This document shows, piece after piece, positions 8,497-15,871 of a stretch of 36,435 nt of DNA; the stretch's first letter is position 1; every line of letters begins with the position of its first letter. The position numbers and the translations under genes were made by a program. The notes beneath the pieces were generated by a model. The model did no database searches. It was not told the DNA's origin and was given only the letters and a program-made list of their open reading frames with translations. The stretch comes from a virus: IMG/VR virus record IMGVR_UViG_3300003543_000037, positions 1-36,435 of that record; one strand, written 5' to 3'.

Positions 8497-9249
8497 ATGA
8501 ATGTCATTAGCAGTAGTTACGGGAACGACAGCATTGCGCTTATTCAGTGGGCTTATGAAAAAGGCCTTAAAGACGTGGTGGTTGTTTATGTGGATACCGG
8601 ATGGGCGACAAAAAAATGGGAGGAACGTATTCTTGCAGGCGAGGCGCTGGCTGGCGGTTATGGGTTTCAGACTGTTCGGTGTGGAGGAGATATGAAGTTT
8701 GAGGAATTAATACAGCATAAAAAAGGATTTCCGAATCAGCGATTTCAATGGTGTTCTGGAATGCTTAAAGGAATACCATTTTTAAACTGGATTGATGAAA
8801 TAGACAAAGACAGAAAAGCGAAAGTTATGGTTGGAAAGCGCAGGGAGGAAAGCCGCGAAAGAGCAAAAACTCCTGAGTATGTTTATGATAGCGATTATCA
8901 CGGAGGCCGAACATTATGGCATCCGCTATATCTTCACAATGAAACAGACAGAAATTTGCTTCTTGAATATGCAGGGTTTGACGTTTTGCCTCATAGATCG
9001 CTTGAATGCTCTCCGTGCGTAAACGCCAATAGAAATGATTTTCAAATGCTCTGCCAGACAGACATAGAAAAAGTAAAAAACCTCGAAAATAAAGTTGGCA
9101 AGAATATGTTCAGACCGGCGAGGCATAATGGGGCGATTGGAATCGTGGAAGTTGTAAAATGGGCGAAATACGGCGCTGGTAAATATATACCAGACCAAGA
9201 GGATATGTTTGATCTTGGGTGTGGTTCACCATTCGGATGCGGATTATAA
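8497..9249 (+). CDS. PP-loop ATP pyrophosphatase, PAPS reductase/adenine nucleotide alpha-hydrolase superfamily
   Basis: 250 residues behind GAGGTAGATTAA. The PP-loop is near the N-terminus, SSYGNDSIALIQWA (S7-x-G-x-D-S12), a variant of SGGxDS, followed by VVVVYVDTGW as in PAPS reductase folds. Cysteines occur in QWCSG (about 87-91), LECSPCVNANRNDF and at the extreme C-terminus LGCGSPFGCGL, which could ligate an iron-sulphur cluster or zinc. The superfamily includes sulphate assimilation, tRNA thiolation and DndC-type DNA sulphur modification enzymes. Phages commonly carry members of unknown substrate. It may modify nucleic acid; this is inference. Confidence 0.75.
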   Translation: MNVISSSYGNDSIALIQWAYEKGLKDVVVVYVDTGWATKKWEERILAGEALAGGYGFQTVRCGGDMKFEELIQHKKGFPNQRFQWCSGMLKGIPFLNWIDEIDKDRKAKVMVGKRREESRERAKTPEYVYDSDYHGGRTLWHPLYLHNETDRNLLLEYAGFDVLPHRSLECSPCVNANRNDFQMLCQTDIEKVKNLENKVGKNMFRPARHNGAIGIVEVVKWAKYGAGKYIPDQEDMFDLGCGSPFGCGL

Positions 9250-12971: not shown

Positions 12972-12995
12972 TAGGCATTAAATTATGATAAAATG

Positions 12996-13025
12996 CGTCC
13001 TGACAAAATGTTTAGGACGTTTTTT
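12996..13025 (+). terminator. Terminator-like hairpin that also covers the ribosome site of the next gene
   Basis: CGTCCT (12996-13001) pairs with AGGACG (13014-13019), followed by six T and then the ATG at 13026. The right arm contains AGGA, the only plausible ribosome site of the ParB-methyltransferase. A TATGAT box at 12984-12989 with TTGCTT 19 bp upstream could start a transcript here. Confidence 0.65.
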
Positions 13026-13898
13026 ATGGTTAAGCCATTACAGATCAAATCGCGGAAAGTTGCAGATTTAATTCCGTATGCAAACAACGCAAAGATTCAC
13101 TCGAACAAGCAAATCTCTCTTATCGCCGCCAGCATCACGGAATACGGGTTTAACAATCCAGTTTTGCTTGATGGTGATAGCGGAATAATCGCCGGTCACG
13201 GAAGGGTAAAGGCGGCGCAAAAGTTAAAACTGGAATCAGTACCGACAATCGAATTGTCGCATTTAACGTCGGCACAAAAGAAAGCATATATTCTCGCGGA
13301 CAACCGTCTTAGCGAGGTTGATATGGAGTGGAATTATGACCTTGTATCGCTCGAACTTCAGGAAATATCAGATAGCGGTTCAGATATAAGTTTGACCGGC
13401 TTTGATGATTGTTTTATTTTGTCTGACGAAGAGCCGGAACAGGTCACGAAAACGGACGATGATTATGGTGGAGCAACATCATTGCAACGTGGTTCTGCTC
13501 CGATGCGCTACTGGAATGAGAAAAAATTACTGGAAGGGATGGTGCTGGACTATGGATGCGGGAATGAAGTCCATGAATTTGCAAAATACGACATGGTCAC
13601 ATATCCAGAAGTCGACGTATTAAAAGCGCAGTATGATGTTGTGATGTGCAACTACGTTTTAAACGTCCAGCCTTCTGATCATCTTATTGATCTGATTATT
13701 TCAAACCTTAGAGGCCTGACTATTGATGGCGGGAAAGTGTTAATTGCCGTAGTGACCGATAAGGCAATGTCTGGCAAGCCTGCTTGTGGGAAACGCGATG
13801 CAATACCGCCAGCGGAATGGAACACAATAATCTCAAGGTTCTTCGATAAAGTTGAAACTGTATCTGGAGGTTTTTGCGGATTTATCTGCACTAAATAA
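13026..13898 (+). CDS. ParB/Srx-like domain fused to a class I SAM-dependent methyltransferase domain
   Basis: 290 residues from the ATG at 13026; a longer frame from 12993 would put the hairpin inside the gene. Residues 5-100 are a ParB/sulfiredoxin-like DNA-associated domain (RKVADLIPYANNAKIHSNKQ, GIIAGHGRVKAAQKL, KKAYILADNRLSE). From about residue 175, MVLDYGCGNEVHEFAKYDMV is a SAM-binding motif I, followed by DVVMCNYVLNVQPSDHL and GGKVLIAVVTDKAMSG. This methyltransferase half resembles those near DNA phosphorothioation systems, by eye. It lacks a D/N/S-PP-Y base-methylation motif, so its substrate is open. The N-terminal domain is a near-duplicate of that in the next gene. Confidence 0.75.
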   Translation: MVKPLQIKSRKVADLIPYANNAKIHSNKQISLIAASITEYGFNNPVLLDGDSGIIAGHGRVKAAQKLKLESVPTIELSHLTSAQKKAYILADNRLSEVDMEWNYDLVSLELQEISDSGSDISLTGFDDCFILSDEEPEQVTKTDDDYGGATSLQRGSAPMRYWNEKKLLEGMVLDYGCGNEVHEFAKYDMVTYPEVDVLKAQYDVVMCNYVLNVQPSDHLIDLIISNLRGLTIDGGKVLIAVVTDKAMSGKPACGKRDAIPPAEWNTIISRFFDKVETVSGGFCGFICTK

Positions 13899-13900
13899 TC

Positions 13901-15199
13901 ATGGCATTAAAAATCGAAAGCAAACAAGTCGATGATCTTATTCCGTATGCAAACAATGCAAAAGTTCATGGTGAAAATCAGGTTCGTGCAATAGCGTCCA
14001 GCATTAAGGAGTTCGGATTCAACAACCCTGTACTGCTTGATGGTGACAATGGAATCATTGCCGGACACGGTCGCGTATTAGCCGCTAAACTGATAGGGCT
14101 GGACGATGTGCCAACGATCGAACTATCGCACCTTACACCGGCGCAGAAAAAGGCATATATCCTCGCAGATAACAGGCTGGCGGAATACGATACTGATTGG
14201 GATATAGAAATGGTCAAGATTGAAATGGAATCAATCGCGGAAATGGGATTGGACTTCGATCTGAATTTTGAAGATTTATTGCAGGCCGGAAACTATTCTC
14301 CGTTTGGCGCATACGAAGACGGAGAGCAAGGCTCGATGGTTAAAGAATACGGGTTTGCTCCGTTTAGTGTTTTGGACACAAGAACAGGCCGGTGGATGGA
14401 GCGAAAAAAATGGTGGAAAAGTCAAATAGGCGACAATGGAGAAAGCCGCGAAGGAACTCTATCGAAATCATCGTTGGTTGGAACATACAATAACGGCGTA
14501 TCGTTATTAGACCCTGTCATGGCTGAGATTGCGTTCAAATGGTTTGGGATGGATGAAGGCAAGGCATTCGACCCGTTCGCAGGCGACACGGTGTTTGGTT
14601 ATGTGTGTGGCTCTCTTGGCGGCATATTTACCGGCATAGAGTTAAGAAAAGAGCAGGCTGATCTAAATCAAGCGCGTTGTGATGAAGCAAGCCTTCCTTG
14701 CACATATCACAATGATACGTCAGAAAACATGGATAAATATATTGACGATGAAAGTCAGGATTTTATGTTTACCTGTCCTCCGTATGCAGACCTCGAGGTT
14801 TATAGCGATGACCCGAAAGACTTATCAACCATGTCGCATGACGAATTCTTTGATATCTATGCCAGCATTCTGAAAAACACTTATGCCAAATTAAAGCAAA
14901 ATAGATTCGCTGTCATTGTGGTCGGAGAGGTACGCGGTACTGATGGAAACTATATCAGCTTAATACCAAATACGATCAGGGCAATGGAGCAGGCCGGATA
15001 CCAGTATTACAATGAAATGATAATTGTGAATGCGATTGGAACGTTGCCTCTCAGAGCGGGAAAGGTAATGAAAAAGGCTCGAAAGATCGGCAAGCATCAT
15101 CAAAACTTTTTAGTATTCCTGAAAGGTGACGCAGTACAAGCAACCAAAGAAATAGGCGACATAATCATCCATGAAGAAGAACAATCAAGTGAAGACTGA
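13901..15199 (+). CDS. ParB-domain DNA methyltransferase (N4/N6 amino type)
   Basis: 432 residues. Residues 1-110 repeat the ParB/Srx domain of the previous gene (QVDDLIPYANNAKVHGENQV, GIIAGHGRVLAAKLI, KKAYILADNRLAEYD). The C-terminal 230 residues are an amino-methyltransferase: FDPFAGDTVFGYVCGSLGGI (SAM-binding motif I) and FTCPPYADLEVYSDDPKDLS, where the catalytic motif reads CPPY instead of the usual D/N/S-PPY. It would methylate exocyclic amines of A or C in DNA, protecting it from host restriction. The ribosome site is weak, so translation is probably coupled to the gene before. Confidence 0.8.
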   Translation: MALKIESKQVDDLIPYANNAKVHGENQVRAIASSIKEFGFNNPVLLDGDNGIIAGHGRVLAAKLIGLDDVPTIELSHLTPAQKKAYILADNRLAEYDTDWDIEMVKIEMESIAEMGLDFDLNFEDLLQAGNYSPFGAYEDGEQGSMVKEYGFAPFSVLDTRTGRWMERKKWWKSQIGDNGESREGTLSKSSLVGTYNNGVSLLDPVMAEIAFKWFGMDEGKAFDPFAGDTVFGYVCGSLGGIFTGIELRKEQADLNQARCDEASLPCTYHNDTSENMDKYIDDESQDFMFTCPPYADLEVYSDDPKDLSTMSHDEFFDIYASILKNTYAKLKQNRFAVIVVGEVRGTDGNYISLIPNTIRAMEQAGYQYYNEMIIVNAIGTLPLRAGKVMKKARKIGKHHQNFLVFLKGDAVQATKEIGDIIIHEEEQSSED

Positions 15200-15530
15200 A
15201 GGCAGTCACATAATCGCCGACATTTGGTTTGAGGAATACCCTCAAGATATTGAAGAACTGACATCAAGAATCAGCGATGCAATTACCGAAAACGGTATGA
15301 CGATAATCGACCAAATGACTCATGTGTTCGGAGGCCTCGCATTCACGGCAGTATGGTTATTGCAGGAAAGTCATTTCACGATACACACATATCCAGAACG
15401 AAATTATGTTTCGATGGATTGTTATACTTGTGGAGCGACTAATCCGCTGTCTGTGGTTGCCGATGTGCTGGCGGCATACGAGCCATTAAGCGTAGATATT
15501 AAGTATCTGACCCGAGGGGTTTTAAAATGA
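15171..15530 (+). CDS. speD: S-adenosylmethionine decarboxylase-like pyruvoyl proenzyme (SpeD/SpeH family)
   Basis: 119 residues. AdoMet decarboxylases self-cleave to a pyruvoyl enzyme that makes decarboxylated SAM, the aminopropyl donor for polyamines. The small bacterial type is clear: SHIIADIW (12-19), then WLLQESHFTIHTYPE (62-76) and MDCYTCG. S67, H72 and C87 have exactly the spacing of S63, H68 and C83 of the Thermotoga enzyme; T59 replaces its S55. Some family members have changed substrate to ornithine or arginine. The gene overlaps the methyltransferase by 29 bases and the small terminase by four. No spermidine synthase is visible nearby. Confidence 0.85.
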   Translation: MKKNNQVKTEGSHIIADIWFEEYPQDIEELTSRISDAITENGMTIIDQMTHVFGGLAFTAVWLLQESHFTIHTYPERNYVSMDCYTCGATNPLSVVADVLAAYEPLSVDIKYLTRGVLK

Positions 15531-15871
15531 ATAGTGAACTGAGAAAGCGGAAGCAAAATATATTTCTGGAAGCGTTTCAGAAGTCAGCCGGTAACGTATC
15601 CGCATCATGCAAGGCGGCGAATATCAATCGAAAGACTTATTACAGGTGGCGGGTCAAAAGCCCCAAATTCGCACAAAAAGCAGATGATGCGATTGAAAGC
15701 CTATATGACATGGTTGAAAGTAAAATTCACAAACAGATTCAGGAAGGCAATACCGTGATGATGATTTTCTTTGCGAAAACAAAAATGAAATCTCGCGGAT
15801 ACATTGAACGCAAGGAATTGGAGTTTGATGGTGTTGTTCCCGTGACCGAGGTCGAAATTGAGGTTGTATGA
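15527..15871 (+). CDS. terS: Terminase small subunit-like helix-turn-helix protein
   Basis: 114 residues; the start is an ATGA overlap with the speD-like gene behind GAGGGGTTTTAAA. RKRKQNIFLEAFQKSAGNVS followed by ASCKAANINRKTYYRWRVK (about 20-45) is a helix-turn-helix as in small terminases of the phBC6A51 type. The remainder is helical (DAIESLYDMVESKIHKQIQE) and suits oligomerisation. Small terminases recognise packaging sites and pass DNA to the large subunit, which follows directly (ATGA overlap). Confidence 0.8.
   Translation: MNSELRKRKQNIFLEAFQKSAGNVSASCKAANINRKTYYRWRVKSPKFAQKADDAIESLYDMVESKIHKQIQEGNTVMMIFFAKTKMKSRGYIERKELEFDGVVPVTEVEIEVV

Follow-up and report, generated by a model that had tools for sequence, protein, structure and literature searches.

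We describe here a two-gene system in a virus record from IMG/VR (IMGVR_UViG_3300003543_000037, positions 1 to 36,435; this whole 36.4-kb stretch is referred to as the window), in which the gene for a ParB-methyltransferase fusion protein, MTase2, overlaps the gene for an S-adenosylmethionine (SAM) decarboxylase, SpeD. The explanation that best accounts for the data as a whole, and that we consider likely, is that SpeD makes decarboxylated SAM (dcSAM) and that MTase2 uses it to aminopropylate a base of the phage DNA, with a protective role. This proposal draws on the conservation of the gene pair, on two residues in the cofactor loop of MTase2 that track the presence of SpeD, on the absence of spermidine synthase (SpeE) and on the intact catalytic residues of SpeD, together with published work on the decarboxylase activity of a SpeD homologue from an operon with this arrangement and on the effect of the two equivalent residues in spermidine synthase. 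The features of the pair are as follows.

13901 to 15199, + strand: MTase2, a ParB-like N-domain with a phrog_498-type amino-methyltransferase; predicted dcSAM-dependent DNA aminopropyltransferase (PHROGs, AlphaFold2)
14567 to 14602, + strand: motif I of MTase2, residues 223 to 234, FDPFAGDTVFGY
14585 to 14587, + strand: Asp229 of MTase2, a residue tracking SpeD
14594 to 14596, + strand: Phe232 of MTase2, a residue tracking SpeD
14771 to 14785, + strand: motif IV of MTase2, residues 291 to 295, TCPPY
15171 to 15530, + strand: SpeD, S-adenosylmethionine decarboxylase of class 1b, with the Glu66-Ser67 cleavage site, His72 and Cys87

MTase2 and SpeD form a conserved gene pair

The pair belongs to a cluster of three open reading frames (ORFs) on the + strand, which encode a further ParB-methyltransferase fusion (MTase1, 13026 to 13898), MTase2 and SpeD, with a spacing of 2 nucleotides between the first two and an overlap of 29 nucleotides between MTase2 and SpeD. 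An earlier reading of the sequence, referred to below as the original prediction, had described these genes as two ParB-methyltransferase fusions plus a SAM decarboxylase, and the ORFs, Pfam, PHROGs and NCBIfam all agree with this description. Using an alignment of the methyltransferase as query, we found SpeD immediately 3′ of an MTase2 relative in 68 of the 80 best IMG/VR loci, mostly with overlapping genes. In the other direction, an MTase2-type gene is located immediately 5′ of SpeD in 68 of 80 IMG/VR loci found with a SpeD query (this query was built from module members, and the fraction is no census of all phage SpeD proteins); the other 12 loci lie either in contigs of at least 77 kb or in contigs that are short or cut. 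MTase2 and SpeD are also found together in Pseudomonas phage ZRG1, in Croceibacter phage P2559S and in 23 bacterial genomes of several phyla. The co-occurrence of the three genes, proposed earlier as a check, thus holds for MTase2 and SpeD, but not for MTase1, which is found in no other module locus.

The pairwise distances of MTase2 and SpeD are correlated across 65 loci (Spearman 0.46, with 0 of 300 permutations as high), and those of MTase2 and the terminase show no correlation (0.02). By this measure, the MTase2-SpeD pair moves as a unit between phage backbones. Among the module loci we found no fused SpeD-methyltransferase protein, the largest neighbour families contain no third constant gene specific to the SpeD clade beyond SpeD itself, and a near-DNA search of phages gave no match. 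The original prediction had counted the occurrence of the decarboxylase without a methyltransferase against itself. Such SpeD genes do occur in large phages (cyanophages, Thermus phages and a Microcystis phage with speH-speE-speB); their gene neighbourhoods differ, and we therefore take them to reflect several uses of phage SpeD, which leaves the MTase2-SpeD module unrefuted. Separately, on a 213-kb contig (L396, positions 1 to 2196) a SpeD match lies just 3′ of a different methyltransferase (TSPPY, loop CAGYGG), which may be a second SpeD-methyltransferase association.

Two residues of the motif I loop track SpeD

The loop of motif I is where class I enzymes contact the methionine part of SAM. 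Among 304 unique MTase2 domains, 127 combine Asp229 with Phe, Met, Leu or Ile at position 232, and SpeD accompanies 124 of these (3 lack it); another 157 combine Gly229 with Arg232, and SpeD accompanies none of them; 12 further domains among the 304 are cut at contig edges. The patterns of the first IMG/VR scan included FAGDTVF, which favours the Asp class, and we took the main count from scans with patterns that avoid the loop; with these, the numbers of domains with and without SpeD are 56 to 1 for the Asp class versus 0 to 141 for the Gly/Arg class. When 98 and 130 representatives are compared, the three columns that best separate the two groups are 229, 176 and 232, and the sister clade without SpeD carries Gly at 229 and Arg at 232 in 130 of 130 representatives, where MTase2 of the window has Asp and Phe. 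A tree calculated with the loop masked still parts the Asp and Gly classes, with a single change. On this tree, the split goes back to a single ancient event and has persisted since, and the Fisher values for the tracking do not describe independent trials.

The equivalent loop is well characterized in spermidine synthase, where the invariant Asp of GGG-D-GG in motif I leaves the SAM carboxylate no room and thereby enforces dcSAM (PMC1282579), and where a hydrogen bond connects this Asp to the amine of the aminopropyl group (PMC6514230). In the Datura enzyme, the exchange D103I abolishes aminopropyl transfer and creates a SAM-dependent methyl transfer, which is raised by V106T (D+3), and in the methyltransferase model the Thr at this position holds the SAM carboxylate (PMC3725402). 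Counted from the canonical motif I (D-x-x-x-G-x), a register that is given by motif spacing only, Asp229 (in FAGDTVFG) and Phe232 of MTase2 occupy the positions of Datura D103 and V106. This suggests a dcSAM pattern (Asp, hydrophobic) in the SpeD-linked clade and a SAM-compatible one (Gly, Arg) in the SpeD-less clade, and we consider it very probable that MTase2 uses dcSAM as its co-substrate.

MTase2 matches neither of the SpeE models PF01564 and PF17284. That the loops of MTase2 and SpeE descend from a common ancestor was dropped as an explanation after profile-profile comparison (hhalign) gave no meaningful alignment, and the similarity of the loops would therefore be convergent. The parallel to SpeE and its SpeD is that dcSAM from SpeD would be used by a class I Rossmann enzyme with an Asp in the motif I loop; the differences are that the predicted acceptor of MTase2 is a DNA base and that the sequence relation between MTase2 and SpeE is undetectable.

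The change of the loop with SpeD indicates dcSAM binding, not which group leaves, and MTase2 has the fold of an amino-methyltransferase with CPPY in motif IV. It could thus be that MTase2 uses dcSAM or SAM as a methyl donor only, while SpeD tunes the cofactor pool such that the phage enzyme works with a cofactor closed to host methyltransferases or SAM-sensing defences. We regard this as unlikely, given that the equivalent Asp of spermidine synthase places dcSAM for aminopropyl transfer and that its loss permits methyl transfer (PMC3725402), and given that dcSAM as a mere methyl donor brings no obvious gain. The tracking of SpeD by the loop also bears on the earlier idea that SAM is drained to disarm restriction. 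SpeD uses up SAM, and the disruption of BREX by phage SAM lyases has been described (discussed in PMC12783734); SpeD might act in the same way against SAM-dependent host defence (restriction-modification, BREX), with the methyltransferase as its neighbour by chance or for expression timing. However, this idea fails to account for MTase2 loop residues that change wherever SpeD is present, it leaves the co-inheritance of MTase2 and SpeD against the phage backbone without explanation, and it would couple a SAM consumer to a methyltransferase that needs SAM, so that we consider it very improbable.

Other loop variants were found without SpeD. Loops with GEQTKG or GDTQKG, with Lys where others have Arg or Phe, occur in L077, L080, L082, L376 and L379, two of which come from Bacteroidota genomes, and an MTase2 homologue at positions 1376 to 2653 of a 5.7-kb contig (L040) has a shortened loop, FAGGMFG, and is perhaps a decaying or repurposed copy. 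Within the sister clade without SpeD, a pyridoxal phosphate (PLP)-dependent enzyme (PALP, tryptophan synthase beta type) interrupts the methyltransferase between motif I and CPPY in Erythrobacter phage ZS04 and Pseudanabaena phage Pam4, and in Mycobacterium phage AlanGrant the gene for a PALP-type enzyme adjoins the methyltransferase gene with overlapping ends. This association is possibly another base hypermodification; its loci in the sister clade are listed below.

L153, 2326 to 4764: PALP-methyltransferase locus
L158, 2547 to 5036: PALP-methyltransferase locus
L157, 1 to 2275: PALP-methyltransferase locus

SpeD has the features of a genuine SAM decarboxylase

The gene at 15171 to 15530 is assigned as a class 1b SAM decarboxylase (AdoMetDC) by its matches to Pfam AdoMet_dc (PF02675; E 1.7e-20, 73.8 bits, cut-off 25) and to the NCBIfam equivalog TIGR03330 (82.4 bits, cut-off 75.65), and in the alignment its Glu66-Ser67, His72 and Cys87 are in register with the Thermotoga maritima enzyme. 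The E-S-H...H...C core is kept in 172 of 179 SpeD proteins of the module, while the remaining seven vary or are damaged; L173, a P2559S-like module, encodes a SpeD that lacks the ESHFAIHTFPE catalytic core through an internal deletion. A single-sequence search of IMG/VR with the window SpeD alone found no relatives. SpeD homologues of phages may be SAM, ornithine or arginine decarboxylases, with activity on ornithine or arginine proven for some of them, and the SpeD of Croceibacter phage P2559S restored spermidine in an E. coli speD deletion, which makes it a true AdoMetDC; methyltransferase and ParB go unmentioned in that paper (PMC9992855). Like the window gene, the gene for this class 1b enzyme overlaps the same kind of methyltransferase gene, although the two SpeD proteins are only ~33% identical.

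These results can be set against a role of SpeD in polyamine synthesis, which would yield spermidine via the host SpeE, or putrescine or agmatine if the enzyme were a neofunctionalised ornithine or arginine decarboxylase, and which would serve to neutralise the packaged DNA. Genuine phage polyamine operons do exist, as in Microcystis phage MaAM05 (L411), whose speH-speH-speE-speB operon is unlike the MTase2-SpeD module, and the phage SpeD homologues with proven activity on ornithine or arginine (PMC9992855) are in line with such a role. Yet the SpeD of P2559S, whose operon is arranged in the same way, is a true AdoMetDC; SpeE (PF01564) was found in none of the 44 viral records searched, among them the complete genomes of ZRG1 and P2559S, with the control matching in 11 of 14 genomes; and PLP-dependent ornithine or arginine decarboxylases were found in none of 12 records. 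The window record itself has neither SpeE nor a PLP-dependent ornithine/arginine decarboxylase, in agreement with the original prediction. A SpeE match is also absent from 10 of the 23 lysogen genomes, several of which are incomplete metagenome assemblies and hence weak evidence of absence; in the isolate Dysgonomonas sp. PF1-14, which has no SpeE, the prophage SpeD is the sole SpeD. Polyamine synthesis would, moreover, leave the loop change of MTase2 without explanation. The earlier suggestion that polyamines are made for the packaged DNA is accordingly disfavoured by the absence of SpeE from all 44 viral records and from some lysogens, and we assign a polyamine role a low probability.

The fold and the ParB-like domain of MTase2 suggest a DNA base as the probable acceptor

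The C-domain of MTase2 is an amino-methyltransferase of the phrog_498 kind (PHROGs, E 5e-119) and scores just over the cut-off of N6_N4_Mtase (PF01555; 27.4 bits, cut-off 26.7), with a motif IV, TCPPY, that departs from the (D/N/S)PP(Y/F/W) of the PF01555 class; SCPPY or TCPPY is present in nearly all MTase2 relatives, with and without SpeD. Full-length homologues are found among the phrog_498-type ParB-methyltransferases of Listeria phage B054, Enterococcus phage phiFL3A and Fusobacterium phage Funu2, which are 36 to 39% identical and have the same CPPY, but which carry Gly/Arg in the loop and have no SpeD. An AlphaFold2 model of MTase2 (mean pLDDT 87, motif I blocks 96 to 97) has its best structural matches in the N2-guanine amine methyltransferases Trm11/TrmN/Trm14 (tRNA m2G10; Z 17 to 19 over ~180 residues), and no solved DNA N4/N6 methyltransferase is among the best 50 structural matches listed. 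These closest solved folds act on an exocyclic amine, but differ from MTase2 in their RNA substrate, their THUMP domain and their SAM cofactor. The class I fold is shared, too, with MccD of microcin C7 (5fcd, Z 15.3). What MccD transfers from SAM is not the methyl group but the methionine side chain; unlike the reaction proposed for MTase2, it acts on a peptide-nucleotide phosphate with SAM, and decarboxylation follows later.

ParB-like domains are a common fusion partner of predicted phage DNA methyltransferases (PMC12704722). Taken together, this domain and the exocyclic-amine fold of Trm11/TrmN/Trm14 point to the exocyclic amine of a DNA base as the most likely acceptor of MTase2. That the closest folds are tRNA m2G10 enzymes would also be compatible with aminopropylation of RNA or protein, instead of DNA, by the MTase2-SpeD pair. 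We consider this improbable, since ParB-like N-domains are a usual partner of predicted phage DNA methyltransferases (PMC12704722), since Pfam and PHROGs scans detect no THUMP or other RNA-binding domain in MTase2, and since the place of the pair beside the terminase fits DNA. Transfer of the aminopropyl group to phage DNA is what we infer as the probable reaction of MTase2.

MTase1 and the surroundings of the pair

The remaining features of the cluster and its borders are the following.

12995 to 13020, + strand: terminator-like hairpin and then a T run, immediately 5′ of the cluster; 9-pair stem plus T tail, folding z-score -3.95
13026 to 13898, + strand: MTase1, a ParB-like N-domain with a small class I methyltransferase-like domain; outside the conserved module (Pfam, PHROGs)
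15527 to 15871, + strand: small terminase subunit, translationally coupled to SpeD by ATGA (phrog_4044, E 1e-13)

The longest ATG of the MTase1 ORF, which ends at 13898, is at 12993; we prefer a start at 13026 because the strong terminator-like hairpin fills 12995 to 13020. With this hairpin and the T run directly 5′ of 13026, the cluster probably starts after a terminator. The N-terminal part of MTase1 is a phage ParB-like domain (PHROGs) that resembles the one of MTase2, and its C-domain has a weak match to Methyltransf_23, below the cut-off of that model. This C-domain (13494 to 13895) is a short methyltransferase-like domain, fused to ParB and almost an orphan: a single-sequence search of IMG/VR gave no relatives of it, the full-length protein had matches in IMG/VR to its ParB part only, tblastn against phages covered at most 69% of MTase1 among the matches listed, and the domain is located beside none of the other module loci. 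MTase1 was rejected as a user of dcSAM, being absent from every other module locus, and the conserved system consists of two genes, MTase2 and SpeD, without MTase1.

At the other end, the ATGA overlap that the original prediction had reported between the decarboxylase and the small terminase is present at 15527 to 15530, where it joins the end of SpeD to the start of the terminase ORF. The window further contains lambda-type replication and recombination genes (O-like and P-like proteins, SSB, Erf, NinB-like and RusA) and, at 8497 to 9249, a gene for a PAPS-reductase-like protein with weak similarity to SspD and DndC; a similar PAPS-reductase-like gene occurs near the methyltransferase in Erythrobacter phage ZS04.

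Discussion

In the mechanism that we propose, SpeD would cleave itself to give a pyruvoyl enzyme, which would convert SAM to dcSAM. MTase2 would bind dcSAM and not SAM, with Asp229 holding the free amine and shutting out the carboxylate, and with Phe232, which stands where SAM-using relatives carry arginine, favouring dcSAM. It would then move the 3-aminopropyl group of dcSAM to the exocyclic amine of a DNA base, while the ParB-like domain would load or regulate MTase2 on the DNA. The product would be a cationic base, formed shortly before packaging, that protects the phage DNA from nucleases. The original prediction had included the use of dcSAM to place an aminopropyl group on DNA as one of its possibilities, with MTase1 as the enzyme; this is now the best-supported reading, though the partner of SpeD is MTase2 and not MTase1, which accompanies no other module.

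Several points weigh against this proposal. Asp at this loop position is also present in some ordinary SAM methyltransferases, and the comparison with SpeE depends on the spacing of motif I, the profile-profile comparison having given no meaningful alignment. The Asp/Gly split has a single origin, and the counts speak for long maintenance, not for independent trials. Three Asp-class proteins (L075, L076 and L232) have no nearby SpeD, two of them in contigs without any SpeD. MTase1 finds no explanation in a two-gene model. Finally, dcSAM could act as methyl donor, and the acceptor could be RNA or protein.

A related strategy is known from Synechococcus phage S-B43, whose CmoA-CmoX-CmoY system involves carboxy-SAM and 5-carboxymethylcytosine, with the phage CmoA supplying the DNA enzyme CmoX (PMC12783734). 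Both there and in our proposal, a homologue of DNA methyltransferases works with a modified SAM made by a phage enzyme, a residue of its pocket is altered in keeping with the part of the cofactor that has changed, and genes with ParB domains are often nearby. The systems differ in that carboxy-SAM is used there and dcSAM would be used here, in that CmoX is a C5 enzyme with SPPC whereas MTase2 is a CPPY amino-methyltransferase, and in that MTase2 would transfer the methionine side chain and not the methyl group. CmoA itself (TIGR00740) was found in 0 of 12 records.

For the family as a whole, we lean towards the view that the SpeD-coupled ParB-methyltransferase clade comprises DNA aminopropyltransferases that converged on the cofactor loop of spermidine synthase, and that their reaction would be a novel kind of DNA hypermodification, with dcSAM employed in a new way outside polyamine synthesis. 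We found no prior report of DNA aminopropylation in the open-access literature, with subscription papers and bioRxiv lying outside the search. The residue rule that emerges (Asp and a hydrophobic residue in motif I, with an adjoining SpeD) can be searched for in any genome, and the presence of the pair in the phage isolates ZRG1 and P2559S makes the question directly testable. If the proposal is true, such an enzyme, by adding a primary amine to DNA at selected sequences, would also be useful for labelling. A positively charged alkyl-amine would join the natural DNA modifications, dcSAM would serve outside polyamine synthesis, and at least some phage SAM decarboxylases without spermidine synthase would have a function.

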